From: Utricularia gibba
Taxonomy: Eukaryota; Streptophyta; Magnoliopsida; Lamiales; Lentibulariaceae
DNA length: 64,000 nt
Direction: 5' to 3'
Assembly: GCA_002189035.1 (NCBI GenBank)
Contig: NEEC01000008.1
Location: 2,790,001 to 2,854,000 of the forward strand
The position numbers and the translations under genes are program-made. Positions 3,084-63,488 of the stretch are shown one piece after another. Below the pieces are notes generated by a model. It made no database searches and was not told the origin of the DNA. It saw only the letters and a program-made list of their open reading frames with translations. Numbering within the stretch: the first letter of the stretch is position 1; each line of letters starts with the position of its first letter.

Positions 3084-3795
3084 ATGGCGTCTTTGTTGCG
3101 ATCGTTCTGCTTTCTCCTCCTTGCTTTTATCTGCATTTCCTCCGGTGCGGAGGCTCAGTTGCCGCCGCCGAGTTCTTTCGCCTCCGCTGTGGATGCATTG
3201 GCCAATTCCGGATACACGGCGATGTCCCTCACGCTGCTGCTCATGGCCGACACTCTGCCGATCTCATCGAACCTCACCATCTTTTCTCCGTCGGACAGAG
3301 CGTTTTCGGCCTCCAGCGAGCCGCCCTTGGATCGCCTGCTACTGCATTTTTCTCCGTCTCTCCTCTCCCACAAGGCGCTGGCTTCCCTCCCATTAGGCGC
3401 AACTATCCCTTCCCTGTCCAACTCCTGCGACCTCGTCGTCACCTCCACCGGAGACAGAGCTTCCATCAACCACGTCAGGGTACCGGAGCGTCCCATCTTC
3501 GATGACGGGTCCGTCGTCGTGTACGGACCTTGAAAAGGCGAAACCCCAGGAGCAGCATCCTTCCACCGTGCCATCGTTTCTTGAACTGCACCTGATGGGG
3601 TTCGTCTCTCCGGGGAGTTTAACGGACGAGATGATGCGGTGGAACCTCTTTGCTGCTGTTAAGGAGTCTCACGGCGTTCTGGCTTCAAAGAGCCTCCTCG
3701 ATACCGTGGAGAGATCTAGCGATGACCGCCAAATTCTACTCATCGTCGTCGCGGTGGCGGTTATTATCGTTACCTCCATTGTTAGTTGTTTTTAA
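3084..3795 (+). CDS. Small fasciclin-like (FAS1) secreted protein, one-base frameshift
   Basis: The first frame encodes 149 residues: a signal peptide (residues 1-24, hydrophobic core then GAEAQ) followed by a FAS1 domain with the conserved 'LTIFSPSDRAF' H1-like box and an H2-like 'DGSVVVYGP'. It then hits TGA at 3531-3533. The adjacent frame continues from there with plausible protein and ends in a hydrophobic tail (about 20 residues, ILLIVVAVAVII), like a GPI signal or membrane anchor. Removing one T from the TT at 3530-3531 joins both parts into 236 residues ending at TAA (3793-3795). Plant FAS1 proteins are cell-wall or plasma-membrane adhesion proteins; this resembles the short FLA19/20/21-type group. 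The break may be a sequencing error, or the gene may be newly inactive. Confidence 0.75.
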
Positions 3796-4167
3796 GCGGT
3801 TTTCTTCACTTTGAAATTCGAATGGATTTTATTTTAGTTTTTTATCATATGCAATGTTCAATTTTCAAATTAATTATTTAAAATTAATCAATTAATATAA
3901 AAAATCCTAAAATTATTATAAAGCATCTGAATAAAATGCTAATAAACTAAATTATTATTCAATTCAATTAATCGGATAATCCACCAACCCAAAAAATGTT
4001 CACAACTACTTAAACTTATAAACTGTAATTAAGCTGAAAAAAAATTCAACGTTTTATTTTCTTAAAGTATTCTAAAATATAATTAAAATTTATTACATTA
4101 TAAAAGCTTATCCCAAATCTAGAATGAGTTAGAACTTGTTTTTTTAACATGGAAAACACGAGTTCAC
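3796..4167. other. AT-rich convergent spacer
   Basis: This is low-complexity AT-rich sequence between the 3' ends of the fasciclin and biotin genes. I see no gene. Confidence 0.6.
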
Positions 4168-7100
4168 TCACATCTTTGAATCTGCCGAGCACAGGGGCGG
4201 TGCACACCTCTCGCGGCCGAACCACAGGACGCCGTCGTAGACTTTGTCGAGAATCCCACGGCAAGTCTCCGGCGAGGTGCAGGGGCCACACATCAGATAT
4301 ATGACATTGCCGAGCGGCCTCATGTAGATTCCATCTCTGTGGAGCCTCTCCAGGAGAGGGCCTGCGTACGTGGAAGCGTACCTGCGGAAAAAGGAGCTCC
4401 TGAAGGAGACGGCTTATACAAGAGAAGGAGCTGATAGAAACGGAATGGGCATCGGAACGCTGAACAATGGCAGAGATTGTGTGTTTTAAACACTGCATTT
4501 ATACCCGGCATCAGAGCCTTCGGCTGTGAGCTCAATGGCGCAGAGAGTTCCAAGGGTCACGATTCTGCTGACAACAGGAAGCCATGAAAGCTGGAGCACA
4601 AGCTCCCTATTCCACAGCTAGTAAAGGCAACATTTTCAGCGATGGGTATGCGGAGCGATAGAATGGAGTGAATTTACTTACCTCCTGAAGCGATTGCGAG
4701 CCGGGTATCAGATTCGAGTTTGTTTTGTGGTCTTTAAACCATTTTATGGACTTGACAGCCGCAGTGCATCCTATAGCATGTGCAGTGTATGAGTGTCCAT
4801 GCAAAAGAGCTTGAAGCTGAAATCAAAGAAAGGGGTGTCAGCAGCAAATGTGCCCAAACTCTTGTCTGAAGCACAGGGTACTTGTTACCTTGGAATCACC
4901 CTCAAATGCTTGGAAAACAGCATCTGAAGCTAAGGTAGCAGATAGCGGAATGATCCCACCAGTCATCAGTTTTGCAAAACAGGCAATGTCTGGCTGACAG
5001 TCGAGGATTTCTGCTGCAGACTGAAGTTAACCAACTGCTCAGTGAAGGTAGAGGGAACTCAGAGAAATAAGCAGCAAAGAGTAATATGGTGGATGGACCT
5101 CTCTTCCCAGACGCCAAAATCCGGTGAAGACCTCGTCGAATATAACAGGGATGTTTCGGCGTTTACATTCTCGGACTAGTGTACGCTGATAAAGAGGATC
5201 AATCATCAGCATTCCACCAGCACCATGGATCACTGCAAATTCATTGCAATCAAGTAAAAGAGTTGTTACTGCGTTTGAAAAAGATGAACCATCGAAAAGT
5301 GCATCTGCAAAGGAAATATTGCCTGGCTCGATTATCAGAGCTCCGACTTGGGACCGCCCACTGCCATCTGTGAGTAGCTGTAGCTCCTCTGATATTACAG
5401 AGGAATAAAGCATTGAAAGGGTAGAAGAATCACGGCTCCTGATAAAGACGTCATCCAGTGAACTGAAAGCTACACCATAATCCAACAGTTAGAAAGAACC
5501 AGAATGATGATCAGTGAAAAGCAATGTGTTTGATGATGCATAACTGGTCCAACAGTTAGAAGAACTAGTCGTTTACCAAGGAGTTCATCTTTGGATTTCA
5601 GAGATTGCATCTTCTTGGGGAGCAAGACTTCCCATGTTCCATTGCACAAGCCAACTGTGGGTGGATCCAAGAAGACACCTCTTCCACAGTACCTGGTTTT
5701 TTTTACAAACAAACTTCAGTCATGAAGCTCTACCAATTAGAGGTTTTTGAACACGCATGAATTGCATCACGTATCAGACATCCAAACAGCAGCTTATGAG
5801 TCAGAATCAGGACATTGGATTCTGCATCAAGTGCTCTTACAGGATATTAAAAACATTTTAGGCAGTGATGGCTAAGCAGCTTTAACTCTTCATATGTTTT
5901 GACCTTCAAGAATAAGAATACATCATTTAATAGAAAATGTTTAAAATTCTAACTAATGTGATCCAAATTGTTTTTTAACTGCAATCAAAATACGCTATGA
6001 TAGCATGAACAGAGAAACAAAGGAAAAAAAAAAAAAAACAGAACAGAACAGAACTGAGCATCTCATGTGCTCAAAAGGCCATACCAGGGCTGCTGGAGGA
6101 GTCCAGTATATGGTGAAGGAGCCTGAGCTTCCATAGCACCCAATGTATCACCATGATAAGACCCTTTAAGAGCTAAAACCTAATTTGGAAAAATTATAAA
6201 TTTCATCTAAAAGAGCAAAACTAATTCCAAGAAAAAGCAGCAAGATTTGTGAAGATCATCAATGCACAAGTCAGGTCACAGATAAGAATCTTCAGAAAAT
6301 ATAAGCAAAAACCAAATGATACTGTTTTCTTGCCTTCAGTTCCAAGAAATTGTGATTCCAATCAGCATTTACAAGGTCTAAGTCCAACTTACTATCAACC
6401 AAGTACTTTCGAAATGCCATTTTGAGGGCAATCTCTACTGCTGTGGATCCATTGTCCGAGAAATACACCCTGGAAGCCCATCCTGGTAAACATTGTGGGT
6501 CAGTTAATGTTAAAACTTTGAATAAAGAACCATGAAAATTTGGCTCTAACATGCTCAATACATATCTACTTAAGAATCCCCAACTGTTCTTACATCATTT
6601 AATAACGGTGCACTGCAGATAGATCATTAGGATGAAAACAATGACTTAATATAAATCACAGATTCAGGCCAGGAAAAAAAAAGGCTGATTTATGTAGTGA
6701 CAGAAGGAACAAGAGAAACGGTAGTGAAGAGGTAAAGACACCTGCCTCTTCCAACACCTTCAAGCAAAAGTTCAGCTAGTTCCAAAGATGGTTCATAAAC
6801 GTTCTCTGGAAACATCACATGCCCATATCTTGCAGTAGCATATCCCACATCTCTAGCAAGTTCAATCTGTATATATAATCAAAACAGGAGTATTACTTAT
6901 AAAACGGCACCTGACACCATTGTTTTAGGAGTGTCCCAAGGATAAAGAAGCCAAACTCCGAATATAATACTACAATACCAATTTAAGAATCAGGGGTACG
7001 ACTCTTATTCGGTGTGCAAAATGTTCACACAGACAGTTCTAAAATGAAAACTGATAAGAAACCATATCTATAGCACTGGAATTGAGCACTGTAAGACCAT

Positions 7101-8988
7101 TACTGATTAGCAACTGACATGTATTCTCCATGGTAACAGTAAGCTAGAAAATATCAAGATTAGATTACCTGCAGGCTAGCATCAGGTCCCTGAGTCCACC
7201 AACTTGCACAAGCATCAAATTGTTGAGAAATACAATCAAATTCCTGAGACTAATTAATCCATGCAGTGATGTTAGGATTCAGTTTTGACAATATAAAATA
7301 CATTTCAGTTATAAAACAAAGAAGGAACCATTTGAACTAATATGTATTAGCATATATGTATAAAGTACAAAAAACATCATCTACTCGAAAGTTCAAACCT
7401 TGTGTATAGAAAAGTTTTCTCCACATCGTGAATCTATAACGGTCACTTTGTCATCGAGCACGAGCTTATGCTGAGTGAATGGCCACCAGAAAGCAGCACA
7501 AGCTCGCTCTGGCATACCGTTCAGCAGCTGAATTCTTTTTTGGAAATCTGAAATCAATATCTCCTTGAGAGTATTGAAAACGACCTGAGACTTCTGGAAC
7601 CAATCTGCTAAATTATCTGATAAATCTGTTGGGATGCATGGAAGAACAAGCACAGGAACCCTGTAAAAGGCCAACCATTCTCTTGATAAGAATACTGAAA
7701 TTTATTTTTAACTGGACAAGTAGCACCTGTCCACAAAGCGCATCACAGACCACAATGAGAAATTCATATATCAAAAACTCGAATCCTTGGAAGGAATAAA
7801 GCACATGAATATGGGTGTGGGTGCTTCACTACCTATTATGGAAATATGATGACAATGGCAACTCATTCTGCAGGCCATGATCCTCAAATATTACAGCAGC
7901 GACATCATACCCACGAAGCTTTAGAGTTTCATAAGCTGATATAGTTCCTGAAATTCCACCAAGCCTTCCATCCCCGACAAGAACAGCAGGCAGGCGAAAA
8001 GGGCTGCAACAAAATCAGAAACAAAAATCACACCCCAAACTTATAGCAAATGATAATTCTGGTTCATTTCTTTTTTTTTAATGCTCAATTAGTATCCAAT
8101 ATTTAGATTTACGCATTGCGTTCATAAGGCAATGACAGATTGAAAGCTTTTCTTTCAGCATCAATACGCCTATCAAATATCCACATGCGGGACAGCATCA
8201 ATGTGCATAACTTTGTGATCATTAATAAACCCTACGCACCGGTACAAGTCGCACTGAAGAGATGAATTAGGCCCTGGACTCGCCACACCACCTGCAGTCT
8301 CAATCAAACACATAGCCTGTGATCCTTCAGCACCAAGCGAAGCTCTTTCCATACAAGTCTTCAAACTCTGCAAGAGAAGCGAGTCTTTGATAGCAGCTCC
8401 TTCATTTTCCGCAGCCAGATGAGGCGAAACTGCCTCTTTCCACGCGTGCATTGTCAGACAAACCAGCTCGGATTCAGGATACGATTCATTTTCGTCAAAG
8501 ACACTGCCTTGCAATTTCGTTTCTTCATGTAAGTTCAAATTTACAAACCCACTTTCAAAGCGTCCACCTTTTTCTACTTTCTCAGACGCAAGATACTCAT
8601 TCGCGAAACCATTTTCGGAAACTGTACGAGCAGCCGGAACGGATACTTTGAGAACACAATTCGAAGCGAAAACAGAGCCCACCAGCGGGTTGCGAGCAAA
8701 AAAGTCGCAGAATTTCCTGTAAACAAAGCGAGAATCAGAGTCCTCTGGAAAACCAGTCTGGAGTGGCTTTACGTATAAAAATCTCTTCTTGGATGATGGT
8801 TCCGAGTTAGATGAAATGAAGGACATAGAAAGACCCGCAGAGACGAGGGTTTTGCCGAGGGAGGTATTGGAAGCCCAAATGGTGTAAATAGGGTGAGACA
8901 ACGGGTACTCAACAGCCGAATGAAAGCAGCGGCTGCTTCGCCGGAGTTTCAAGAATCGGCGGCGGAGTGAAGTTAAAATCAGCGTCAT
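4168..8988 (-). CDS. BIO3-BIO1: Bifunctional dethiobiotin synthetase / DAPA aminotransferase (BIO3-BIO1)
   Basis: This gene makes dethiobiotin from KAPA in mitochondria: the aminotransferase forms DAPA and the synthetase closes the ureido ring. I reconstructed 14 exons that stay in frame from ATG (8986-8988) to TGA (4168-4170), giving 870 residues: 8988-8240, 8003-7833, 7660-7399, 7243-7169, 6866-6746, 6482-6334, 6179-6085, 5692-5577, 5469-5323, 5232-5099, 5020-4889, 4816-4682, 4617-4505, 4381-4168. The start gives an Arg-rich presequence (MTLILTSLRRRFLKLRRSS); an upstream in-frame Met at 9039 looks less likely. The synthetase half has 'NTSLGKT', 'KPLQTGFP' and 'GDGRLGGIS'. The PLP half has 'WWPFTQH', 'YHGDTLGAM', 'VIFDEVFTGFWRLG' and the lysine motif 'FAKLMTGG'. 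Three introns (after 6746, 6334 and 5323) need GC donors. The fusion is known in plants. Confidence 0.95.
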
Positions 8989-9019
8989 TGCGTCAGCAAG
9001 GACTGAAACCCACCAATTT

Positions 9020-9710
9020 TCTGGCTTCCTTTTAAGCAACAGGATGAGAATCGCCGTGGGAAGTCGCCATCCTCGTGCACGGTGCCACCATATTTCAAAT
9101 GGCGAGTGTCATTTCAAGGGTTCCCAAATACAAACATTTGCGAAGTGCTGCTCCTGCTGAAATAGGTAATGACGTAATTGCAAGAATAGCATCAAACATC
9201 ATTCAGCTCTCTCCATCTCTACTACCAGCAGCCTTCTCATCTCACCTTCACTGGGAAAGCGGTATCCAAGTTTTACCAGAACACAGGTTTGCTGGGTTCT
9301 TCCTGCGACCAACAAAGTTCCTATATTTGAATTCATTTGAGGCATGAGCACGGATCAGCAGCTTGAAAAAACAGCACTTGTTTGTTGCCTTTCTCTTGGG
9401 TGGCAACAAGAATCGAGCTTTGCAGCAGTTCAAGGTTATATGCACAACCCTTGTGAGCATCCAGGTTATTTTCAAATAGTTAGATTCAAACGCAGGCAGT
9501 TTTGTGTGAAATGGGTTCGATTCCATCACGCTGCAGGTGTGCAAACGCTTACCATATTTGAATTCAGTTGTTTCCCAGTATTTGCTTGCCATGGAGACAA
9601 CTCAGTGAAGTAAATAGCTGGAAACGCCAATTTTCACACTCAGCGAAAGATTCCTCTTCACACAAAATGTACTTAAAACCCTTGAATTCCCCTGAAAGTT
9701 CTGTAGATCC
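9020..9710. other. Divergent spacer between BIO3-BIO1 and the TPD1-like gene
   Basis: Only short frames are present (for example 9344-9613, 89 codons), and none resembles a known family. The region likely holds both promoters and leaders. Confidence 0.5.
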
Positions 9711-10216
9711 ATGGCGAGCTCCTGCTTTATAATCTTCATCATCTTCTCCCTTCGCCCTCCCATTGTTACATGTGCGCTTCAAGCTTCAGTGTTCTGTCTT
9801 CCTTGTCAACTTAGTTCATCTGATATCCATCGTGCTGAACTTATTGAAGCCTCAAGTTGTTACTGATGGTGTTTTACATCGCATTTGCAGGCTGGTTTCT
9901 CAATCCCAGAGGATGCGACCTTGGGGATATACGAATCTATCAATGGCCTTCAGGCTTCGCAGCGCTGCACGTCCCCAAGTTCACGGTTGAAATCATCAAC
10001 GAGACGTGGAGCGCCAAGACGATATACGAGGTCAGGATTTCGTGCCATGGATTCGCGACGACGACGGTGATCGACCCGAGGATCTTCCGGCGGCTCGACA
10101 TGTCCGTATGCCTTCTGAGAGACGGCGGGGTCATCAAACCAGGGGATGTCATCAGCTTCGACTACTCCAATGTGCTTCCCTTTCCTCTCTTGGTTCTCGA
10201 CATGAAGTGCAAGTAG
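9711..10216 (+). CDS. TPD1-like small secreted protein (first exon uncertain)
   Basis: The clear part is the exon from about 9890 to the TAG at 10214-10216. It carries the family pattern 'CDLGDIRIYQ', 'PKFTVEIINE', 'ISCHGFATTTVIDPRIFRRLD', 'CLLRDGG.I.PGD.ISFDY' and 'PFPLLVL'. Related plant proteins are ligands such as TPD1, which signals through EMS1 in anthers, or uncharacterised secreted relatives. A hydrophobic signal-peptide-like first exon begins at ATG 9711 (MASSCFIIFIIFSL), and an acceptor TTTGCAG precedes 9890. The frame across the intron works with a donor near 9771, but this is not certain. An alternative start at ATG 9866 would avoid splicing and give a weaker leader. The central cysteine pair typical of the family is replaced here by 'ETWSAKT'. 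Confidence 0.65.
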
Positions 10217-11155
10217 AACCACAATTTGAGTTAAAGGTGTTGCCATTCCTGGAAACGCAACCTGTTTCACCACTTCACGTTCTGTTAGGCAGCTTCCATC
10301 CATGAGATTAGTTAGCTTCCATATGTGTCGGAGAAAAAGCCTGCAAATGGACTCTGATGAGTCCTCCATTTCGTCAATGAGAAAACACTCTCCAAAGCTT
10401 CCTTCTCATGACTGTCGGTTCTGAGGAATCATCAGTAGGATCATCTTCTTCACCCAGCCAGTTGATCAACAGAGACCGAACAACAAGAACAAAAGTTACA
10501 AAGAATTTTTAACTGGGAACCAATCCTTGGTAAAAACCTTGTCTTCTCCCAGCATTCGACAACAGATCCGACAACAACTGCAACACAGCAAGCTTTGACA
10601 GGAAACAGAGTGTGCAACCAGAGACAGTAAACTGACTAAACACTCTGACGAAACCAAGCACTGAATTTGGCTAGTTTGCCGACTTGGGTGCTTTCCCATT
10701 GCAGCAAACATGGCTTAATTGAAGGATCTTGCTAGTTTGACAAGACACTGATTAAGGATCCAGTAGCAATACAATGACAATAGATACAGAACAACGGCTG
10801 AAAGTTTCCTGTACTTCGGACATAACTATATTTGATTGAATGTGTGTGAAAGAATGTAATAATGGAATCCATTGAGCAATAGGAAGTTTATTAGTGATAT
10901 ATAATTATTTTAAAAAAAATTTAAAAATTAAATTTCATTTTCCATCCTCAAGTTAAATAAGATTTCAATCATTTTAAATTTGTTATTTTTCGTGCAATTC
11001 TTCAAATGATCTTTTGTTGTCAAATTATTTCTTTTTTGAAAATTATCATCTACAAAATAATATTATTTTAAATTTTGAAATGTATTTATTTAAATACAAT
11101 ATTAATTAAATTAAATTTGATCATCTCGTAAATGTAATTTCATTTTTATTTTTAA

Positions 11156-11215
<60 letters not shown>

Positions 11216-12233
11216 TTACCGTTTTGGTGTAGGGTAAAAGAAGGAAGCGTGGCGTGGATGAAGGAGCATTGAATGGTGTGTGGGGGCGAGCGCACGAGGC
11301 CATGAAGAAGGCAACAGTTCCAGTCCAGGCTGGAACTGGTCCCACCCCACGGCTGGCTTCCTTGCCCTTCCCTCTCGCCGTCGCTTTCTCAATACTACGC
11401 ACAACTCTGATCCTCCAGACCCACCTGCCACCCCAAAAATAAAGAAATAATCTAAAAAATTATTTTCCTTCCATTATTTAATTCATTATGTAAATTGGGA
11501 ATGAATAAATAAGGTAAAAAACTTGGAACTTGTTGGGTAGTAATACATACAAATTAATTTTTATTAAATAATGTACATTAGTTCTTGATTTTCTAAGAAT
11601 TGATAATTATATGAATCAGATATCAAAGTACTTTTTTTGGTTACACTGAGATTTATGATGAAAATAGGTTTGGTTGATCATGATGACCTATTCTAATTAT
11701 ATAGATTAGAATCATTTTTTCAGATTATAAAATACTTTATTGAATATTATAAAATTTAATATCATAATATAAATGTATTTTATAATAGATAAAAAAAGTG
11801 AATAATTTCTAAATTTAATAACTGAATCCAACTTTTTGATTTTGTACATATACATTAAAGATTAGAACTTTTAAAAATTAAATATAACAATTTCAGAAAA
11901 TTATATACTGAGCCCCTATTAATTATTAATTTTATTCTTTTTACTTAATTCATGAAAATTATCCATTTAAAACTTATGTAAATATAAATGTTTTAATAAT
12001 AGTTTATATACATATCATTATAAAATATCTACCAATAACTAATATTTTCTACAAAATGTATTTATATTTTATTAAATCGCTTTTTATAAATTAATCTCAT
12101 TCACATTTTTAAAAAATTCCTACTTTTAGTTTTTTTTTAAAGAAAAAAAAAAGAAAAAGACATAAATAGGCAAGTGTGTGGCGTGGCCGGGGGTCCATTT
12201 GCATTTTAGAGTGTATCTATCTCCGACCGCGTG
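10217..12233. other. AT-rich spacer with a GC-rich island
   Basis: This is intergenic sequence before the PYL gene. It includes an (AT)26 microsatellite and a GC-richer block at about 11220-11440 whose frames match nothing I recognise. The remainder is AT-rich with no genes. Confidence 0.55.
11161..11212. repeat. (AT)n microsatellite
   Basis: About 26 uninterrupted AT units are visible, followed by a T run. Confidence 0.98.
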
Positions 12234-12240
12234 TATATAA
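12234..12240 (+). promoter_or_regulatory. TATA box of the PYL gene
   Basis: TATATAA lies about 58 bases upstream of the chosen ATG at 12298. Confidence 0.6.
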
Positions 12241-12297
12241 CGGCGCCTGTTTTGAGATTAAACCTTGGAGGTAATACAGAACAGGAGAGGAAAAAGA

Positions 12298-17455: not shown

Positions 17456-17855
17456 GCTGCAGCATGACTCTCCCAAGCATCCCATTGGCTGACTCCTACG
17501 AGCAGCTTGAAACTTCACCTTCAGAAAACCAGAAGAAAGACTTCCATCACCAATTAGACTATTAAACATGATTTGTTCAATATTTGTTTAATGGAACCCA
17601 TTAATCAATCATGTAATATTGATAGTAAAAATATTTTATTTTTGAATTTGACATACTCATAATTTCTAATCTATTTTCAAATTCTTGAATATGGTGAATT
17701 TGAAAAACAAAATAATACATGAAAAATTCCAAAATCAACCCATCAAATATATTAACTCTAATCCAACGAAAGAAGGCTTTATGGTTGAATCTCATAGAAG
17801 GTGATGCCACAAAAGAGTTAAAAAAAAAAAGAACGAAATTTACCAGCCTTCACGT
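17456..17855. other. Convergent spacer between PIG-V and DnaJ
   Basis: This AT-rich sequence holds both 3' untranslated regions. I see no gene. Confidence 0.6.
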
Positions 17856-19517: not shown

Positions 19518-19847
19518 TACAAAGGCTTTTCGTGTTCTTCCGACGGTGTATATTCACGAATCAGAACATCAAAATTCAACATGAATTTCTCCTCTTCCGC
19601 CGCAACCACCCCCCTCTACCACCAATCAACGTGGCGTGCCGTGCGGCGCCATTAACCGCCCAAACGTTCTCTTTCCCCAAGACAAAATCTATTGGATCCT
19701 TCGGCCAGGTAACTAAATTGAGCCAGCCCATTTCAAAGCCCAATTGTTAAATAATTATTTAAATTTAACTTAAATATGATTGAATTGAAAGATAAAATTT
19801 AAAAAATTAGAAATATTCGAATTTTACATAAATTTTATTTTTACGTA

Positions 19848-23000: not shown

Positions 23001-26000
23001 TTCAACAGCAAGAAAAATGTGGCAGGATATTGGTTTGACAATTATTCCATGCATGTAACCCATCAAGTGGATGTACTTAGCATAATAGATGACTAAATTA
23101 AGGCCTTCCAACTGTTATCGTGCCATCTGTGAATAAGGTTTATACCTTCAAAGCTATCTTCAAACATGAACCCCGGATTGGTGGTCTCTGCAAAATTAAA
23201 CTCCAAACCACACTGAGACCCTGGGTAACTCTGTCTCCGCCGTACATTTCCATCTCATCATTACTAGGACAACTTAAGGTTTCCAGCATTTCAAATATAC
23301 TTTTTGGAAGATAAGGAACATCGCAGAGAATTCTACCAAGAGATTTGTCAGATGCAGGAAAAGAATCCCTCAGAGTTTCAGTCTGTGTCCAACAAAAATG
23401 AGTGATGATGAGAACATGCATTTATACTATTAGTTAGATATTCGAACCAGGATACTTACCACTTGCAAAAGAAAAGTTTCATACACAGATGTAGCTGTTG
23501 TTGAAGCAAAAAAATCACGGTCTGCTTCAGCCTCTCCATACAGCCTGTATAGGGCGCGCAATGTTAATTCATGCCCCTGAAAAGCTACAGTGATCAGCTA
23601 TGTCATACAGAATCTACAAAGCATTTCCTCTCAAAGAAAAGCACATGGGTCAGAATGTAAAGCAAGGCAGTCATTTTCCATGAGGTGGGGATAATTAGAA
23701 TTGTCAAAATGAATAAAAAAACACAAAGGCCCAAGTTTATACAATAAAGCACACAAACTTAATCCAATATTTAGCTGAATTCCGACAGAGAGAAAATAAT
23801 GCAGCCTTTAACTACCAAAGATCATAAGCTCATTTACCTCATGATTGCTATAATCAGAAAAAATATGCTCTCTCAATAATTTCCATGGGTCCAGCTCTGT
23901 TGGGAACTGCATTAAGAACACATTATAGAAAGCATTTAATAAGACCAGAAATATGGAACATAGTATGCCATGGTGCTTACCTCCATTCCTGAGTGTGCAA
24001 GAATGGAGAAGCGAGCTTCAGACCCTCCAGCAACTGAAACTTGCCTATATGCATCAATGATGTGCACAAAAGCCAGTTGCTGTAACTGGTCCTTCTGCTC
24101 ATCACTGAGGTATAATACAGGAGCAGATATCTTAGGGAGAATTACTCTTGAAACGGATAAATCAGATGTCGCAGACAACTTGACACTGGTAGAGTCCATT
24201 GCCTTTGAATGGAGTTCTTCAGACATATCACTGGTCAACAAATAATTCTCCACGGGTTTTCCACCTAAAGGTGGATTATCCTCTTGAGAACCCTCCACTA
24301 AATCAGTTAAATTTGAATCATCTAAACCAGCAAAGCTATTTGAGGAAGCAAGTTCGGAAACTTCCTCATTCTGAACAGATAGAACAAGCCCTGGTATTAC
24401 ATCTGGAATATCTTCAGTATCATTGGCCTTATCTGATGTATACACATGTCCTGTATCCATAAAATCTAGGACATCACCCACAGAGGCATACTCACTTAAA
24501 GGTGCTGCCACTTGTTCGTTCAAGCTGCTGAATTCAGCATTGCTATCAGTCAGAGTCACTTCTAGTTCATCATTTCCATGAGCTTGCTGCATCAAATACC
24601 AAGGCGCATGCATTTACGAGATGTAAGATAATGACATAATGTAAAGAAACAAAAAAAAATTTTGGAGCCTATTATTGATACTTAAAATAGGAAATAAAAT
24701 AAACAAAATGATTGATTAGTACAAATGATGCATAATGGCATACCTCAAACTCTGCAGGAAATGAATCAGGTGAGTTTTCAATTACAGAGTCCTTCTCGAT
24801 GGACACTGACTGTGGAAGAACATCTGCCAGCAAAACTGACAAGTGCTTAATGTGCATATCGCATTGAGTCACATCAACATCATCCCCCATGCCCTGAAGC
24901 GAAGTTTCATTTCCTTCAGATTTGAAGCTTTTCGGGGAATATTTTGCATATTGGCCATTACTACTTCTGCTAGCAAGTCTGCTGATATACTAGCGATGAG
25001 AATCTCAAGGGATGCAACAGCCTTCTCACCCTGAGCAACCAATGCGCCAAACATTGCCACAAGCTGTTGGACAGGTCCATTATCCTCAGTGGATTGCGAT
25101 GCACTTTTTTCACTAGGAGAGTTTCTTTCCAGCTCTTCTGTCATTCCATGCCGAAGTTCCTCTGATGGGCTGAGTGATGATCTTGCACGCTTTGCAGCCA
25201 TGCCATCTTCTATAAACTCAGGTCTATCTGCATACTCAATTCTTTTTCTGCCCACATTATCATGCTCAGGGAAAAGAAGTGGAGAGGACTTTTTATCCTA
25301 CACAAGAAAATATTGTTCCTTTAAGTTGCACATTTAGCATAATTAAGAACAAATAAAATACCTCACGGGCTTGGGCACTATGTGTATCATCTCCCTGTGC
25401 TGCTGTGTCATTAGTTCCAACTATCACTGTGGAAGGATTTTCTAAAAAATCCCCAACCTTCATCACACTTAAAGCACTAAGTAGACGGTTCCGCCACTTC
25501 AAGAAGAGATAGAGATAAGATAATTAGAGAGATCACGATGTCAAATCATTAGGGGATCAAGATAAAAGAATCTATAACAATTTCTATGGATTATTTACCT
25601 ACTTAATAGTATTAGAATTAATTGGTTTACTTCAAGTTCTCTGATTTTTAGACATCAGCTAAAAACATGAAGCACAAAAGATAGTGTGCTTGGAACATAA
25701 TGAATTTACCGGGGCTGCAGCATCATGTACACAATCCAAACAAGATTCAAAAGCATTCTTCAATGCCTGATGCACACCAGCTACATGCACGACCTTGCTA
25801 GCAGAAATTGATGGCTTAAAGGCAAGCAAAACTGGTAGAATACGGCCATAAAAAGCAGGCCTCTTTTTTGCAAGAATTGAAATACTGCACATTTTTAAAG
25901 CAAAATAATGATTCATTAGACAAACTCATTTATATAATTGAGGTCAAACAAGAAATGTACATACAAATACGAGTGAGAAAGACAGCCACAAACCTTTTAA

Positions 26001-30696: not shown

Positions 30697-32160
30697 ATGG
30701 CCACCGCCGCCGCCGCCGCCTCTTCATTCCTCGGCACTCGCCTCCCGGAGATCAACTCTGGCTCCGGCCGGGTCATGGCACGGTTCGGATTCGGTAAGAA
30801 GGCTCCGAAGAAAGCAGCGAAGAAGGTGGTTTCAGACCGCCCGCTATGGTACCCCGGAGCCACAGCGCCAGAGTATCTCGACGGAACCCTCATCGGAGAC
30901 TACGGCTTCGATCCGTTCGGTCTCGCAAAGCCCGCGGAGTACCTGCAATTCGATGTGGACTCGCTGGACCAGAATCTGGCTAAAAACATTGCCGGAGATA
31001 TCATCGGAACCAGAACCGAAACCGCCGATGTGAAATCCACACCCCTGCAGCCGTACAGCGAGATTTTCGGGCTCCAGAGGTTCAGAGAATGTGAGCTGAT
31101 TCATGGAAGATGGGCAATGCTCGCTACCCTCGGCGCCCTCACCGTCGAGTGGCTCACGGGCGTCACATGGCAAGATGCGGGCAAGGTAATAATATTATCC
31201 GCATTTTTTTATTTACTCATAAATGCTTATAAAATTATTCTGTGAATTCGTATGCCTTACCTTAGCCTTCATGTGATTTTTCATCAATATTCCATAATTT
31301 TTTTAGAATAATTACTATTTTATCGAATTGAAAATAATTTTATAATTTCAAAAATACTTTTAAATTTAAATTTTTAAAAAAATGTATTTCTTTTTTAATT
31401 ATTTCAAAATAATTCATTATATCATTTAGAAATTAGGTAGCCATAGGTGATCGATTTTATAGATTTCTAATTTATTTCAAGACGTAGTTGTTATTTGCGT
31501 AGTCAGAAATTCTCATTTAAAAAAGTAGAATTAAAGAGTGTTCTAAAAAATTTTAAAAACTATTTTTACTTTTCAGAAGTAAAAATAGTTTTATTCTAAA
31601 CAATTTTAATTGTAAAAGTAATTCTATCAAAAATACTTTTAAAATTATAACTGCAAAAGTTATTTTTGAAAAATTAAGAAATTGTTTAATTTTACTTTTT
31701 ATTTCTACTTTTTAAAAATAATTTTGAAAAGTAAAAATATGTTTCAAAAAATTTTCAGAAATTTAGAATCTTTGGAGATGATGGTGTGGTGTTGTCAGGT
31801 TGAGCTGGTGGAGGGAGCTTCATACCTCGGGCAGTCGCTCCCCTTCTCAATATCAACGTTGGTTGCCATCGAGGTTGTGATCATCGGGTACATCGAGTTC
31901 CAGCGGAATGCGGAGCTGGACCCGGAGAAGCGCATCTACCCGGGCGGGTCTTCTTCGACCCGCTGGGTCTAGCGTCGGACCCCGTGAAAAAGGAGGCCCT
32001 TCAGCTGGCGGAGATCAAGCACGCCCGTCTCGCCATGGTGGGGTTCTTGGGGTTCGCGGTCCAGGCCGCGGCCACCGGAAAAGGCCCGCTCAACAACTGG
32101 GCGACCCATCTCAGCGACCCGCTTCACACCACCATTTTCGACACCTTCGGCCTGTTTTAA
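30697..32160 (+). CDS. Lhcb4: Chlorophyll a/b-binding protein CP29 (Lhcb4), one-base frameshift
   Basis: This is a minor antenna protein of photosystem II in the thylakoid membrane that links trimeric LHCII to the core. Exon 1 (30697-31185) encodes the transit peptide, the CP29 N-terminus ('[12 protein letters not shown]', 'DRPLWYPGA', '[10 protein letters not shown]', '[20 protein letters not shown]') and the first chlorophyll-binding helix ('[15 protein letters not shown]'). Exon 2 (31799-32160) encodes the second helix ('[27 protein letters not shown]') and the third ('[38 protein letters not shown]'). Between them the frame shifts at GGG 31946-31948: one more G gives '[13 protein letters not shown]'. 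Exon 2 has 362 bases, two more than a multiple of three, which fits one missing base. The protein would be about 283 residues. Confidence 0.93.
31543..31756. mobile_element. MITE-like inverted-repeat element in the CP29 intron (tentative)
   Basis: The 3' half of the intron has imperfect terminal inverted repeats of about 30 bases (left about 31543-31574, right about 31726-31756), both containing TATTTTTACTTTTC or its complement. An internal near-perfect palindrome lies at 31556-31592. There is no coding capacity. I cannot define target-site duplications in AT-rich sequence. Confidence 0.35.
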
Positions 32161-53213: not shown

Positions 53214-54464
53214 AATGGAATGTTTATAATTGTTTAACTGTGGAATGCATCTGTGAATTTTGTGATGCTGAAATCTATATGTTGAACTGTGGAATGTAAG
53301 AAATGTGAGCATATGTTATGTTGGAAGTGAAGCATTGATAATGAACGCTCATTTTCTTCTAGAGAAGATTGCAACTCTGGCCACTATGTTTCCTTGACCC
53401 GTTGTTCTAGATCAGTTTTTTTAGACCAGATACACTTCAGATTGGATTTCAATAACGTAATCAGGATGAGAATTAGTAACATGTTTTAATTGCTAGCTTT
53501 CTCCACTGCATCTGGATTCATTGTTAAGATCTTCAGTGCTGTCTACTTTCTTACAAAGCATCACACTCCATCTGGTCTTCTGATACACCAGAGGAAGCCG
53601 AGACATGTTTAGCTCATGCCTCGTGCTTCCAGTCCAGCCCTGAACACTGATTTAAACTCTTATGGAAACTTCACCTTCCATTAGAGTGTTAGTGGGATTG
53701 ACTTCCACTACCACAGTTTTCAAATCTCATCAGAAAAAACCACTACACAAACGGAGTCAACTGAAACCACTGAGGCACAGTTTACATTTGATGGATGGAT
53801 CAATCTGAACCCACCAAGGACGGTCGTGTTTCCTTGGGGTTAAAGTTGAGGTGAAAATAATGCAGGGTTCCAATTCCACTGTACTTCCACCGAATAAAGA
53901 AACGCTTCCCTTCTCATCCTTTCAAATAGTCTATTGGGGAAGAAAATGATTCTCCATCTGAATAAAAAAACAAAAGGTGGTTTCTTTCTTCCGGGTCTAC
54001 GAAGAACCATCATGTATGAGAAAAACACGTATTAAAAAAGGAGGATTCACGACTCCTTTTTGTCTGGAGATGGATCTGATCTTCTTTGTCTCTCTACCTT
54101 TCACAAGATCATATCTCATGCCATGCATGTCATACTGTAGGATGGCAAAAAGTATTCGACCAGAAGCGGGGGTGCATGGATACCGGCAGCAATTCGAGTC
54201 CCTGCATCAAAAGCAAGTAGCCGTGTCCGATTCTCAACAAAAAAGCATCCCTATGTCGACACGGCCGCAGACTGGTTGTTGCATCGTCTCATCACTTGCC
54301 CCTGTAATGGAAAACCCACTTGAAATTTGACGCACCCAAATCAAATATTCACAGTCATTTGTAATAATGACCACTTATTCCAGGTATGATCAATCATCAC
54401 CTAAACAATTGTAATAATAATATTTTTTGACAATTTTTCAATCAAGGAAGTTGCGTTTGTAGGC
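53214..54464. other. Intergenic spacer upstream of the NPF gene
   Basis: I see no coding sequence. The first part is the 3' region of the preceding gene. Short frames at 53840-54330 do not resemble proteins I know. Confidence 0.55.
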
Positions 54465-54472
54465 TATATAAG
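54465..54472 (+). promoter_or_regulatory. TATA box of the NPF gene
   Basis: TATATAAG lies about 60 bases before the ATG at 54532. Confidence 0.55.
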
Positions 54473-54531
54473 CAGTAGTTCCTGAGATTTGCAGAAACTC
54501 AGAACTGAAAAGTTGGACGGGGGACGGAGAC

Positions 54532-56467
54532 ATGGGAGTTGAGGAATCGTTGAGCCGCCGTGAACCAGAACCGGAACCAGACGACGACCGATGGGTGTAC
54601 AGTTCTTGCGTCGACTACCATGGACGAATACCGCTGCGAGCTTCTACTGGTTCATGGAAAGCTGCCCTCTTCATCATTGGTAAACAGAAACAGGAACCTC
54701 TTTCTCTCTGTGTTTCTGTTTTTTTACCAGTGTTCATTTCGAGCTTGTTTTTGCTCATGGCAGCGATTGAATTTAGTGAAAGGCTAAGTTACTTCGGAAT
54801 ATCCACCGCTCTGATTATTTACCTCACCAAAGTTCTCCATCAAGACATCCAAACCGCGGCCAAAAGCGTCAATTACTGGATCGGGGTGACGACGATGATG
54901 CCCCTCATCGGAGGATTCATCGCAGACGCCTACCTCGGTTGCTTCCACACCGTCCTGGCGTCCTCCATAGTTTACATCATGGTGATTCATCGCAAAATCT
55001 CTCTATACTCCGCATCGGAGATACGTCATTGCGTCAGACATGCTCTGCTTTCCCTTGTGTACGTAACAATTTTGTTCGACACAGGGCTTGCTGTTGTTGA
55101 CGATGTCGAGAGCGATCCCGAGTTTAAGGCCTGGCGATAACCAGAGGGTCCATGGCGTCATTTTTTTCATTTCCATATACATGATTTCGGTGGGCACCGG
55201 AGGGCACAAGCCGGCGCTTGAGAGTTTCGGGGCGGATCAGTTTGACGAGCATCATGCCGGAGAACGGAAACAGAGGATGTCCTTCTTTAATTGGTGGAAT
55301 TTCGCTATTTCGTGCGGATGTCTTCTGGGTGTCACTGTGATTGTTTACATTCAGGATAATATCAGCTGGCTTTCAGCTGACGTTGTCCTTACGTCGGCTA
55401 TGCTGCTGTCGTCGATAGTTTTCATGCTCGGACGCCGGTTTTTTCGGTCTCGGAAACCCATGGGGAGTCCGCTGGTTCCTCTCTTTCAGGTGCTTGCTGC
55501 GGCGGTTGCGAAAAGGAAACTTCACGACCCCCGTCGCCGGACCAGCTCTACGAGGTTCCGAAGTCGGAGATGGCGCGGGGGGAAAGGCTTCTCCCGCACA
55601 CCCACAAGCTAAAGTATCTCTCATTTGCTTCCCGTTGGATCTCCTTTAGAACATACTGAACGAGTTGCTGTTATTTGATCTCCAAGGTTTCTGGATAAAG
55701 CTGCGATTGTTGAAGAAGACAAAGGGGAGCAGGGTCCATGGCGACTGGCAGCAGTGACGAAAGTAGAAGAATTGAAGCTCATCATCAACATGATCCCTAT
55801 TTGGGTAACCGCTCTCCCATTCGGAATCTGCATCGCACAAACAAGCACGTTCTTCATCAAACAGAGCACCACAATGAACCGCCGAATCACCCCGGATTTC
55901 GTCATCCCGCCGGCGTCGATCTACGCCATCACCCCTGTCGGATTGATATTCGCCGTCACTGTATACGACAGACTCCTAGTCCCCTGTTTACGGAGAGTCA
56001 CCGGAAACGAGCGGGGCATCAAAATCCTCCACCGAATCGGAATCGGAATGGCCTTCTCCGTGGTATCCATGGTCGTCGCAGCCCTAATCGAGAGAAAGCG
56101 GCTCAACTCCAGGACCCCGTTAGGGATTTTCTGGTTGGCGCCGCAGTTTCTGATAATCGGGATCGGAGATGCGTTCGCGATTGTGGGTTTGCAGGAGTAT
56201 TTCTACGATCAGGTCCCGGAGTCGATGCGAAGCTTGGGTATCGCATTCTACCTGAGTGTCATCGGAGCGGCGAACTTCCTGAGCAGCCTTCTGATCACGG
56301 TAGTTGATCGCGTTACAGACAAGATGGGGAAGAATTGGTTCGCTATGGATCTCAATTCCAGTCACCTTGATCGATTCTACTGGCTTTTGGCAGCTATCGG
56401 AGCCACCAATATTTGCGTCTACGCCGCCGTTGCCCGTCGTTACGTTAACAAGAATGTGATGGTGTAA
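54532..56467 (+). CDS. NRT1/PTR family (NPF) transporter, NPF5-like, one-base frameshift
   Basis: Four exons (54532-54679, 54764-54981, 55085-55613, 55687-56467) encode a 12-helix proton-coupled transporter. Landmarks: 'GSWKAALFIIAIEFSERLSYFGISTALIIYLT' (the ExxER-type TM1 motif appears as IEFSER), 'GGFIADAYLG', 'GTGGHKPALESFGADQFDE' and 'SFFNWWNF'. The C-terminal half has 'IPIWVTALPFGI', 'TSTFFIKQSTTMNR', 'GIGDAFAIVGLQEYFYDQVPESMRSLG' and 'GNW'-like 'KMGKNWFAMDLN'. In exon 3 the frame breaks in the C run 55528-55532. One extra C restores '...HDPPSPDQLYEVPKSEMARGERLLPHTHKLKFLDKAAI' and gives 558 residues. The family moves nitrate, peptides or hormones; this substrate is unknown. Similarity is closest to NPF5 members. 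Confidence 0.92.
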
Positions 56468-56512
56468 TTAATTTATGATAATATAATATACTAATAATTT
56501 CTCGAATATCTT

Positions 56513-56586
56513 GTCTGGGTGGTGTAGTTGGTTATCACGCTAGTCTCACACACTAGAGGTCCCCGGTTCGAACCCGGGCTCAGACA
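56513..56586 (+). tRNA. trnV-CAC: tRNA-Val (CAC)
   Basis: This 74-base cloverleaf has a 7-bp acceptor stem (GTCTGGG with CTCAGAC, one G-U). The D arm carries A box-like GTGTAGTTGG, the anticodon stem CTAGT/ACTAG closes the loop CTCACAC (anticodon CAC), and the T arm carries GGTTCGAACCC (B box). The discriminator base is A. No intron and no encoded CCA, as expected for a nuclear gene. It lies 45 bases after the NPF stop codon. Confidence 0.95.
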
Positions 56587-56592
56587 ATCAGC

Positions 56593-56600
56593 TTTTTTTT
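56593..56600 (+). terminator. RNA polymerase III terminator of tRNA-Val
   Basis: A run of eight T starts seven bases after the tRNA 3' end. Confidence 0.85.
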
Positions 56601-57194
56601 GCCTCTTATATGGCAACAGAGGGAAACTGTCATTACTAATATATCATAATATTTCATGTTTATTTTCTTATTTTTTTGTGTTAAAATCTATTAATATTGA
56701 ACAAATTAAATAATTATTTATTGGAATATTTGCTTTTAATCTTTTTTAAAATCCGATGAAATTAGTTACTGGAGAAGCAAGTTGTGTTGAAACCCATTGC
56801 CCAGACCGACGAGAAGCTAAAGCTGCCAAACAACACTGAGACAGAGAAGAAAAGATGCCTGAATTCATCTGCAGAAAAGCACCGCCTCAATAATCCACCG
56901 TTTGTTACCTTAACTGTCTCGCTGAGGATCGGCAAAAGATCAATTTTTTCCCCATCCCGGCTTCAGTTTTGATTGTTCTACGATTAGTATTCTCTTGCTT
57001 TTTTTTTTTTAATTCTGTTGGTTTTGGGAATCAGTTCGAAATTAGTTTGATTTTGACCGTGTAACTAGACGAAGAATCAGGGGAAATTGGGGGATTGCAT
57101 CTCTCTTGTGATATGCGATGGTTGAAAATTTTGAAGAATTTGGGAATTTAGGGGTTTGACGGAGGCCCCTTTGGAAGGTTAAGGGTTTCTGAAG
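56601..57194. other. Spacer and leader of the CASP-like gene
   Basis: I see no gene. The sequence from about 56760 onward is probably a transcribed 5' leader, with a T-rich patch near 57000. Confidence 0.5.
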
Positions 57195-58095
57195 ATGAAG
57201 GATCTGTTGGGTTGCCCTGGGAGTGTCAGTGGATTGCTATTAAGAATTGGGCAGTCCTTATTTGCCGCTGCTTCTGTTGGAGCTATGGTTTCTGCGAGTG
57301 GATTCTCCAACTTCACTGCGTTTTGGTATTCCTGAGTTCACTCCCTGGTTTTACTTTGTCCCAGCTTATGTCTGCTTTCTTTATATGGATGGTTTTACCT
57401 AAAACGTTCAAATTCTGTGTTTCTATACTTGAGGTTTTCTGTGGCTTGTTTTCGAAATTCATGATTGTGATAAATTGGGATTTGTCATTTCTTCCTGCAT
57501 TTGCTCCTTGAAATGATGTTGATTTTCTGTTGTATTCGCTTTTGAATTATGTTTATCATAAGGAACTCATGGAAGAGCGGAGTCCCCTTCTATGGAAACA
57601 ACTTTTATTCTTGTTATAGAACAAACCCACCATTCAAATTTGACAACAACAGATTCTTCTTAAGCTAGGTTGTGACATCATATCTGTTTGTGTGTTCAGC
57701 TATCTAATTGCATCAATGGGGCTTCAAGTTCTGTGGAGCTTTGCACTTGCCGGCCTTGACATCTACTCTCTATGTACCAAAAGAGACATCAGAAATCCCG
57801 TTCTTGTTAGCCTCTTTGTCGTGGGTGACTGGGTATTCCCTCTTCCCCTCCACAGTTGCAAAGTTGAATCACCTATGAACCATCCTTACTTGCAGGTCAC
57901 AGCCGCGCTCTCTCTGGCGGCAGCGTGTTCATCCGCCGGATCGCAGTTTTGTATGCCAAGGACTTGAACTACTGCACGGGACAAGCACATCTTCCATGCC
58001 TTAGATTCGAGCTCTCTATAGCACTGGCTTTCGTTACATGGCTGTTTGCTGCCATTTCTTCCCATGTCATGTTTTGGATCTTAGCTTCTCTTTGA
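57195..58095 (+). CDS. CASP-like membrane protein, CASPL5C type, one-base frameshift
   Basis: Three exons (57195-57325, 57700-57832, 57896-58095) encode about 154 residues with four membrane segments and little else, as in CASP-like proteins of the Casparian-strip/MARVEL family. Signatures are '[31 protein letters not shown]', '[24 protein letters not shown]', 'LDIYSL', '[13 protein letters not shown]', '[15 protein letters not shown]', 'LYAKDLNYC' and the end 'FWILASL'. The third exon breaks at GG 57940-57941: one added G gives '[16 protein letters not shown]', while as read the frame stops at 57965-57967. CASPLs are plasma-membrane proteins that may organise local wall modification; the 5C group is little studied. 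Confidence 0.88.
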
Positions 58096-61000
58096 AACAT
58101 CCCTCTGTGCGCTTGCTGACGTTTGTTATCAGCTTGTTGAAGATTTTGCTGCTCACTTCCTTCTCCATTCTTCAGAAACACTTCTCTACCCATTTGCCAA
58201 GGTCGTGCTCGAATCGGAAGCCGATCGCTGGTAGTTGGATCAGAACTTCACCGTACTTTCTGACTCCAGCAAGATGCTTTTTTTTCAATAGAAAGATTAA
58301 AATTTTCATTTTATTAATGGTATTGACATTCTAATATAAAAATAAAATTATTAAAATGGTTGATTTCAGATATATTTATTGAATTGTAAAAAATGATTTA
58401 TCATTCATTAAATATGTATGATCACTCAAATTAGTAAATATTGAAATTAAGAATTCAATAAATCATATATTCAAATTAGTAGATGTTAAAATTAAAAATT
58501 CAATAAAATAAATAAATATACGTAAAATTCAAATATATAATAAACTTAAATCATATTACAAAATAATAATACTTATTTATTTTAATATAAAATTATTTGT
58601 TATAATAATAATAAATTAATACCCACTATGCCCTTTCCGCATGTTGGTAAACAAATGAATCTTGAACCTGACCCACGTCAAAGTACGGACGTTCTCAAAA
58701 CCACGCATGGAAATGTTTTGATCTTGCCCATGGGTTTAGAAATAAGATCTTTTCTGCGTCTTGAGAGATGTGGCGAAGTTAGAGCCACACAACAAACCAA
58801 AAGAGTTTTGACAACCCTGAATCGATCATCCCGCAAAATCCAAGATTGCTGCCACGCCAATAGCTGTCTGATTTCAGGCATTCGATCTGTTGATATCTCG
58901 GGAAGGCTCATGTACCTTGAAAGCCACATTTTTTGCAGGAACAACCAATCAAAATCGTTTGTCTCTTTGCACATTCAATCATATTTGTAACTCTTGGTGG
59001 GAATCAGTGTTTTCAACTTCTGTTTTTGGGAAGGATTTGAATCAGGATGCCACTGAGAACTTCTTTGAATATTTTACTTCACTTGAACTGGGGGGATATA
59101 AATCTAGGGTTTTCTCACAATACCTGTTGTTTTCATATGGACTGCAGTGACAGATTGAGCTCACAAAATGTTTCTCAATATTATACTCGATGTTCATTTT
59201 CGATGTGGAATATTGAACCAGGTATGACGTTATGTCTTAGTTTTCTCTCTTTTTTTTTTTTTTGGAACGCAGAGATGCACTTGTTGATTGGTCGTTCTTT
59301 CAAGCTTATGCATTATTAGGTCTCCTTTTCGACATTTCAGCCTTTCTTCTTTTTCCCTACGTCTTCTCTGGTTGTTTGTTAGCTTTTGTGGTTCATTCCA
59401 AACAAGTTGAGATTAGAAAACATTCTTATTCAACTGGAATGCTGAAAAAGAAATGTGGATCCAGAATAAGCTGGGGATCGATCAGGGAGAAAACAAATGG
59501 AAATTCCAAACATTAACACACAATGGCATAGTTCTCTGGTAAGTTTTGCTTACCTCATTTTAGGGCTTAAACTAGAACTTAGGTTCTTTAGCAGAGTAAC
59601 AATAAACCGAATGCCAAATTTCTGATTGAAGTTCTGAACTGTTGCTCATTACAAAGTTCATCATTCACGATTCTCGGTATGCTTCAAGAGCTTCCAACAA
59701 TGGTGATTGAGTAGGTTATGGATGGATTGTGCCCTCAAGATCCACCCCTTGGCCAAAATCACAACTTCACTTAGGCATTTCTCAAGAAGAATTTAAGGCT
59801 GTCTCTTCTTGCATCCCCACAGACTGTTCTCTCTTTCCTTTTGACACTGCATCTGAGCTAGGTTGAGATTCATGCTGTATAATTTTAACCGAATCCGGAG
59901 CCTGGAGGAGGAGGAGAAGTAAACACAAAGATTATTGAGTTTTGGGTTGGCTCCAATTTGGTTCTCTATGCGCATTCACAAGCCAACCCAAGGCTGTCAA
60001 GGACCATTTTTGGAGATTGTGAATCTTGTGTTGCAGCTCCATTTCTGGAGATTGTACTGGCCGTCAAGGGCCAGTTCCACTTGTTACTTCCTAAACTTCC
60101 CCCAATGTGTTAGAACATGCACTTGTTCCTGCTGAAATTCCTTAGAACGCATCTATTACCAGATGGGAATCATCTCAGCTATAAAAAGCACTTGAACCAC
60201 TAGTAAATGACTCGGAATTCATCGGCCTTCCTGCTTCAGACAAGTGCGCAGCCTGGTGTCTAAACCATGTCGCGTTCAAAGTGGGTCAATCAGACACGCC
60301 AAAACCCTCGCGCATTCTTCCGGTGGATGCTATAAAAGGCGATGACACCACCACCTGCTCTTCCGCTTTACAGATACAACATTGGATTAAAATATGCATG
60401 CAGAAACAAATTCCTGCTGTGAAATATCTGGTCAAGCTTTTTAGCCGGCCCAGTGTTAGAATCATTTTTGGTGCATAGTGTATGGATTTTTGCAAGGCGT
60501 TCAAATGCCATGAAACTCGTTGAATTGAATACATGTCTTAAACGGTCACTCTATTACATTAAAAAAAGGTTTTTTTAACACTGCTACACTCGGGGAACAA
60601 AAAAAATACTTCTTTTTTTAACCAATTGTACTTTTCTGATTGAGCATTAACCCTAAATTTAATAAATGTGATCGATTCTTACAAGTTTTTACAAAAATGA
60701 AAAAAAGTAGATATAAAACATGATGTTATTGTCTTGAATTTTTTTTTATTGAACAAAATTATGCTCATTCTTATTAGAACACAATCCCATATCATAAAAT
60801 GAAATTAATCAATTGAATCTATTTTTTTAATTTGTTGCAAGTTTTTTATTTATTTGAACTTCATGTATACCCCCAATCTATAGGATTCTTAATTTCAATA
60901 AAACATGTGTTTCATGCTGGCATGAGGATTGATTAAAAAAACAAAATAAAGAGATTCATTGAACTTAGACAACAAAAATTATCTATAATTATAAAAAAAA

Positions 61001-61404
61001 TCTAAGTTTTAATCAAAGCAAAGATCGATTCGACTTAAGGTTGACTATTAGAACAAATAATTGTACATCAACATTTGAAAATGAAATAATTAAGTATATA
61101 AGAAATTAAATATCAATAATAATTTGTTAACTATAATCTTTTCTAATATGATACATATCTATTATGAACTTGGGTTTTTCATGTAATCATCCGATTTTAT
61201 CGAATCCTTAATTTTAAAAATTCTAATTAGTTTTAGGGTTGATTTGTCGATGAACAAAAGAAAATGTTTAAGTCCAGGCTAGGTGATTATTTAATCTGAT
61301 GCAATGTCCTTTGGAACCCTACCCAGAACTACTATGTTTTCTCCTCACACTAATGCATATATAGTCCTCGTCAAATCACACTTTGGGTGTCGAGATCTTC
61401 ATAA
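58096..61404. other. 3.3-kb intergenic region
   Basis: The first part is the 3' region of the CASP-like gene. The sequence at 58620-60480 is less AT-rich, with short frames (for example 58628-58990 and 59262-59516) that match nothing I know. The sequence at 60540-61300 is AT-rich. A TATA-like 'catatatag' near 61356 precedes the next gene. Confidence 0.45.
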
Positions 61405-61803
61405 ATGGAGGAGGGAGGTGAAAATCAACAAGGTGAGCATGCATCACTGCCAAGGTATTCTTATCCTTGCAGGTTTTGCAACCGAGTGCTCATATCTGCT
61501 CCAGCTTTGGGTGGCCATATGAATGTACACAGAGTAGAAAGAGCCAAGTTGAAGCAATCCCTGAACTCTCCCCAGCTCCAGGATGCCGCGTACCGCAGCA
61601 CCCTGCTTCTGTTTCCTCCGAGTAGGAACGTCTATGCATCGACCCTCAACGGGAAGACAAAGGGAAATGTGGAAATCGGTAGCTGCAAGAAGAAGAAGGT
61701 CGAGGGAAAACTCTCGTGGCCTCATTCGTCTCAGGAGGTGGATGTGGATCTCGAGTTGAGACTGGGACACAACCCGAATCTTGGTGACGACATTGACCAC
61801 TGA
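61405..61803 (+). CDS. One-finger C2H2/EAR zinc-finger protein, variant QALGGH
   Basis: An intronless frame encodes 132 residues, in the style of the SUPERMAN/TAC1/RABBIT EARS group. The single finger spans about residues 20-43 ('[23 protein letters not shown]', Cys-x2-Cys...His-x3-His). A basic region follows, and the C-terminus has an EAR repression motif in 'DVDLELRLG'. Such proteins bind DNA in the nucleus and recruit TOPLESS-type corepressors during organ and branch development. The plant-specific QALGGH core reads PALGGH here: the Gln is replaced by Pro (CAA to CCA would suffice). The paralogue 1.2 kb downstream keeps Gln. It may bind DNA weakly or differently. Confidence 0.85.
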
Positions 61804-63015
61804 ATCAGGGAAAGATTTGAACAGCAGATCCAGGTTTTTGTCTGAAGTTCATCTCCTCAGAAGCATTCCTTCTCTTCGTTATCACTTTCTGTCAGTGGAT
61901 AAACCCCTTTTCACTTTTCCAAACAAGTAAAGAACCGAAAAACAGGATGAGATACAACACTTTTACTGGTTTGTGGGAGCAGAGTAACAAGTGACATGAT
62001 CAATCATCACATGTATTAGAAAAATAAGTTATTTATAGAGAAAAATATTCATCGTATATATAAAAAATTGATTTTAGTAAATAAAGTATAAAGTTTTCAA
62101 AATGATCACCATACATATAATAAATTCATCACTGCCCTCAATGGCTTTAGCCACTCACAAATCCAGCTTCTAGGGCTTATTTAATACACTATTTTGAATT
62201 ATTTTGATAAGATTTTCATTTTTCAAATCCCACAATCTTTTAAAGGTGGCTTTATCTTAAACATGCAATTTCCTTTATTTATTTTTCTATTAATTAAATA
62301 TCATATAAAAATTAAAATCTCTTACACAATATTTTCTAAACCCAACATTTCTTGTTTCAATGAGAATTTTTTTGTGCCCTACACCAAAGTTAAGGTGTGC
62401 TTTTGCTCAACTTGTCCAAGTTAAGTGTTCCATGATTATAATCATCTTATTTTGCAATATCTTTCACGTAAGCATTTTATTATTTTTCATTTTGACGTTC
62501 TAAAATGAAGAGTGAGGGATCCATTGGGCCGGTTCCTTTATTTGACCGGTAGCTCTTCCAATTTGCCGTTGGCCCATAAAGCCCATTGGGCATTGAAGCT
62601 AATAATCAGTTTAAATATATAAAATTAATAGAAATTGAAACATGATTAGAATATTTGAAAGTTCAAATTTAATATATATAATAATAATAATTAAAAAGAA
62701 ATATTTTTAAAAAAATTGGATTAAATATGCCAATTTTAAATTATGCAATCAAAATATAAGTTTTAAATAATATTAAAAACTGATTTTAAAATTTTTAAAA
62801 AAAATAATCGATTTCTCAATTTCCGAAATTGAAAATAATACGTCGAGAGTTCATCCAATAATTTATACCTATGCAAAAGCCTATGCTTGGGTTTCGACAG
62901 CCCTAGCTTTTTTCTGAGGAAAAGCCATTTGACCGGAGCTCCGGCAGCGGCCATTGTTGAGATTCAGACAAGCCAAACCTGAAACTTCAACTGCTTGTTC
63001 CCCCATCATTCAGAC
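61804..63015. other. AT-rich spacer between the two zinc-finger genes
   Basis: I see no gene. A cluster of TGGGCC, GGCCCA and TGGGCA elements lies at about 62525-62590, followed by AT-rich sequence up to the next gene. Confidence 0.55.
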
Positions 63016-63488
63016 ATGAACGTCCAGCAACCATCGGGGAAGTCAGTTTCATGGGACGGTCAAAGCCTCGTGCTATCCAGATCCTTCATGTGCAATTTCT
63101 GCAAAAGGGGCTTTTCCAATGCACAAGCCCTAGGAGGACACATGAACATTCATCGCAAGGATCGGGCCAAGCTCATCGAGTTTTCAGAAGGGAACCTTCT
63201 CTCGTTGGATCCAACGCCAAAGGTTATTGATTACGGTGAAGAGAGTGGGAAAGAAGGGTGTTGTGCTGATTCACCTGGGATGAGAAGCTGATCACGGTTG
63301 AAAGGGAAGCTGTGTGTTTGGAAGGGGAAGAGGCAGCCAAGAGGGTGAAGGTTTTAGGGTTCGGGAATGGGGATTTGGACCTTGAGCTTCGGCTGGGACC
63401 GCGGCTGCGGCAGAACCCGAAACTGCACGATTTCATGGGGTTGAATTCTGCTGGGACTGAAGCCCAAACAAGGTTTAGCAAGAGATAA
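63016..63488 (+). CDS. One-finger C2H2/EAR zinc-finger protein, one-base frameshift
   Basis: The frame begins at ATG 63016. Residues about 29-50 are a C2H2 finger with an intact core ('[30 protein letters not shown]'). As written it stops at TGA 63289-63291. In the shifted frame the sequence continues as '[24 protein letters not shown]', a nuclear-localisation-like cluster plus EAR motif, and ends at TAA 63486-63488. One added G at GGG 63277-63279 gives '[19 protein letters not shown]' and a 157-residue protein. Without it the repression motif would be lost. It is likely an active repressor like its upstream neighbour, in tandem orientation. Confidence 0.85.

Follow-up and report, generated by a model that had tools for sequence, protein, structure and literature searches.

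Frame changes in six genes of a 64-kb plant nuclear window: probable residual consensus errors at five of the sites

The window considered here, by which we mean the whole 64 kb analysed, from the nuclear genome of a plant (G000:C414:2790001-2854000), was the subject of a sequence-only reading according to which six of its genes each change frame once. All six shifts were found again, at or near the places then given. Are such genes broken in the plant, or in the assembly that represents it? The comparisons below were made within a single assembly of 100 Mb and 516 contigs. The six genes, or the parts of them that could be matched, are as follows:

3084..3792, plus strand: single-domain fasciclin (FAS1) gene (Pfam Fasciclin, E 7.7e-4; two paralogues on C3)
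24741..25297, minus strand: symplekin exon (adjacent open frames without room for an intron; paralogue C98:764652-764810)
30697..32160, plus strand: CP29 (Lhcb4) gene (Pfam Chloroa_b-bind on both sides of the shift; DNA alignment to an intact C3 paralogue)
54472..56467, plus strand: NPF (PTR2/POT) transporter gene (ordered Pfam PTR2 matches on the two sides of the shift; in-phase splice)
57668..58095, plus strand: CASP-like membrane protein gene, matched part (DNA alignment to paralogue C3:913306-913736)
63082..63488, plus strand: second C2H2 zinc-finger gene, matched part (paralogue C375:1572100-1572456)

The same window carries at 5039-9108 a BIO3-BIO1-type bifunctional biotin gene, the first part of which matches structure 4a0g/4a0f (E 6.8e-49).

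Paralogues of the fasciclin, CP29 and CASP-like genes are grouped on C3 at about 0.81-0.92 Mb, in what looks, from the sequence, like a duplicated block, so that relatives within the same genome could be used for comparison. In-frame relatives from this genome cross four of the sites (symplekin, CP29, CASP-like and second C2H2), and the call for the NPF gene is based on the order of its Pfam matches and on splice phase. The repeats of the window were also searched for a young duplicate to compare, and none was found.

In the exon that we take to be that of a plant symplekin, the run at 24934-24937 reads CGGGGA on the plus strand, which is a C run on the minus strand of the gene. The two frames abut, an intron cannot fit between them, and the second frame stays open for about 60 codons, up to a splice donor; a distant paralogue on C98 passes the site in a single frame when aligned. 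The site thus reads as a net one-base loss. The same reading applies to the NPF gene, where the Pfam PTR2 profile is matched over positions 13-152 and then 189-387 on the two sides of CCCCC at 55528-55532, and where the shifted frame continues to ...HTHKLK before an in-phase splice to FLDKAAI. For the CASP-like gene, DNA alignment sets CCGG-ATCG in the window against GGCGGGATT in the paralogue, with GG at 57938-57939 standing for GGG; the gene is one base short as had been claimed, but at a point two bases away from the proposed 57940-57941. The second C2H2 gene, which carries an EAR-type DLELRLG motif, aligns over its site in one frame with its C375 paralogue, and a net one-base loss lies near 63277, the position being approximate.

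CP29 is also one base short, though outside the GGG at 31946-31948 to which the loss had been assigned. Its intact paralogue at C3:864.5-865.1 kb has GGCGGGTCATTCTTC, where the window has GGCGGGTC-TTCTTC, the window version opposite GGCGGGTCATTCTTC being also written as GGCGGGTCTTCTTC. Alignment places the absent base between 31950 and 31951, where it would close a serine codon as its third base, the exact base being approximate. The intron of this gene contains a repeat, about 235 bases long (31507-31766), with dozens of genome matches at 82-89% identity.

Of the single-base changes proposed, the five losses stand as net one-base losses and the extra T in fasciclin fails, and the placement of the losses at G/C runs is borne out for symplekin, NPF and CASP-like but is not shown for CP29 and C2H2. 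More broadly, one-base changes at or beside short runs were found at five of the six window sites and, elsewhere in the assembly, in all events bar an ambiguous one in HSP70.

The reading frames beyond the shifts bear on the possibility that the plant itself carries five broken genes, through independent recent loss-of-function mutations that are fixed or present in the assembled haplotype. An older duplication has left several of these genes with paralogues, and the loss of one copy could be tolerable; a broken frame in one copy of a pair is also what is seen in the pseudogenes of duplicated plant genomes. Unlike such pseudogenes, however, the genes studied here show neither stop codons nor any additional decay, the sequence past the shift is under strong selection in CP29 and HSP70, and genes as conserved as Lhcb1 and HSP70 are hit equally. 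For the part that follows the shift, dN/dS comes to about 0.05 in CP29 (dN 0.034, dS 0.63) and about 0.03 in the HSP70 gene on C496 (dN 0.034, dS 1.05); in the HSP70 gene on C451 dN is 0.087 with dS saturated, and in the CASP-like gene constraint is weaker, at about 0.29 over a short stretch of 48 codons. These estimates cover CP29, the CASP-like gene and the HSP70 genes on C496 and C451. Relaxed selection and further disabling changes, the marks of a pseudogene, were looked for and not found: there were no in-frame stops, and both CP29 and the HSP70 gene on C496 are constrained. Such ratios show long-term constraint and, taken alone, are compatible with a very recent mutation.

The rest of the assembly was examined with a frame-tolerant protein-to-DNA aligner written for this work and run on conserved families. 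In HSP70, where eight genes gave 4629 aligned codons (13.9 kb), it counted five frame changes, a rate close to one in 2.8 kb; the 95% Poisson range on the count is 1.6 to 11.7. Four of them are one-base losses in three genes, on C451, C496 and C255, whose proteins are 83-94% identical to those of their relatives; the fifth is of ambiguous type, in a gene at 66% identity. The HSP70 frame change on C304 is also present in C241, but it falls within a stretch identical between the two contigs, and this pair was rejected as an independent check of the event. In Lhcb1, two tandem copies on C3, with 99-100% protein identity to a joint reference, have one loss each, located by aligning the two copies with each other: the first has TCCC in place of TCCCC, and the second is a base short ahead of CCCAGC. 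The tandem array to which they belong (G000:C3:3490709-3502451) contains six or more Lhcb1 copies, of which two were read, both with a one-base loss. Cytochrome P450 sequences, for which narrow stretches were taken for alignment, gave three further losses in two genes. Because the choice of Lhcb1, P450 and LHC loci had in part followed their broken appearance, the rate is drawn from HSP70 alone.

Across these families the shifts classed by the aligner are all net one-base losses, one ambiguous case excepted. The frequency is similar over the assembly whatever the gene, as judged from the HSP70 rate and from the Lhcb1, P450 and LHC events on several contigs, and no difference between the rate in the window and that in HSP70 is seen when the coding length of the window is set anywhere from 18 to 26 kb (summed by eye, it comes to about 20-25 kb). 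All six full-length histone H3 genes are intact, in about 2.3 kb of coding sequence in which less than one event was expected, so that they carry little information. Paralogues of NPF were left uncounted as a rate estimate, since identities of 35-45% together with introns made most automatic frame calls unreliable, and the actin, UDP-glycosyltransferase and P450 tables were set aside as a source of frame changes because intron read-through mimics them.

Near-identical contigs were also compared. One-base length differences nearly as common as substitutions are expected from consensus error and not from ordinary polymorphism, and this is what is found between C376 (29.6 kb) and C413: over 9.1 kb there are five substitutions, an indel of 39 bases, and four homopolymers whose length differs by one base. 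A stretch of 2.1 kb contains one substitution and two of the homopolymer differences, and a further 7.0 kb contain four substitutions, the 39-base indel and the other two homopolymer differences, which are in G5 and A8 runs, each shorter in C376. A P450 gene lies across one of the differing runs within the 2.1 kb, frameshifted with G4 in C376 and in frame with G5 in C413. The two contigs may be two haplotypes, in which case some of the length differences would be true polymorphism. Here and in C241/C304, small contigs almost identical to parts of large ones are probably retained haplotypes or duplicate assembly.

We therefore hold with high confidence that the five frame changes in symplekin, CP29, NPF, CASP-like and second C2H2 are residual consensus errors, because the same lesion occurs elsewhere at a similar rate, because purifying selection is seen downstream of shifts, and because of the differences between C376 and C413. 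The sequence-only reading had proposed consensus error, and for these five sites the proposal is upheld on those same three grounds, which are independent of the window. Genuine breakage of the five genes is, by comparison, very improbable: HSP70 and Lhcb1 genes show the same lesion with no other damage, the direction of change is that of a net one-base loss in every classed shift but the ambiguous one, and of two near-identical contigs one is intact where the other is broken. Programmed ribosomal frameshifting, or another recoding signal, would preserve function and would agree with the conserved frames that flank each site on both sides. It is nevertheless so implausible as to be negligible, given that the paralogues of CP29, CASP, C2H2, Lhcb1 and HSP70 are single-frame and that sequence contexts differ from site to site; we know of no precedent for frameshifting in five unrelated nuclear genes.

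Under consensus error, the assembly would have been incompletely corrected, with individual bases lost within or next to short runs, most of them G or C, all over the genome; in the sampled genes such omissions come to roughly one in every 3 kb of coding sequence. The five affected genes would then probably be intact in the plant, and we infer that the reads would contain the absent bases and that the sequencing platform was a long-read one. Within the window, homopolymers of up to 15 A/T and 6 G/C survive, and their length spectrum has no sharp cut-off, so that it gives no clear pointer to one platform and neither supports nor excludes any. Long-read assemblies carry residual indel errors, according to Watson and Warr (2019) as cited in PMC7501810 and PMC8337076. 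The present case resembles such errors in that short-run, single-base length errors break otherwise intact genes assembly-wide, and departs from it in that long A/T runs are not sharply shortened here.

The five one-base losses are thus almost certainly a problem of data quality and not of biology. With the sampled rate of about one frame change in 3 kb of coding sequence, a large part of the gene models built on this assembly would be cut short or contain false introns, and claims of gene loss or of odd protein ends that are drawn from it need a prior check against reads or RNA. The result is a caution on gene models and has no bearing on the biology of the plant.

The fasciclin gene stands apart. 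An extra T at 3530-3531 had been proposed, and alignment with the two C3 paralogues (C3:811988-812620 and C3:815893-816492) replaces it with a gap at 3526-3531, some 23 nt long, in which a conserved EDFF stretch is absent. This gap could reflect a genuine deletion, or else a different or larger assembly fault. The chances seem evenly divided on whether, in this gene alone, a true deletion of about 23 nt has given a pseudogene or a truncated protein. The stretch absent from the window is present in both paralogues, in one case bordered by a short GAAC repeat, and the family is variable, the second C3 copy ending early in the same region; past the gap, however, 67 of 77 bases still match the paralogue, and a larger assembly fault would give the same appearance. 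It is likewise an open call, with as much for it as against, that at least one of the six, most likely fasciclin, is a member of a duplicated pair that has genuinely and recently lost its function. The paralogue at C3:811900-812800 itself seems to have a frame change of its own near its end, with a hydrophobic tail like that of the window lying in another frame.
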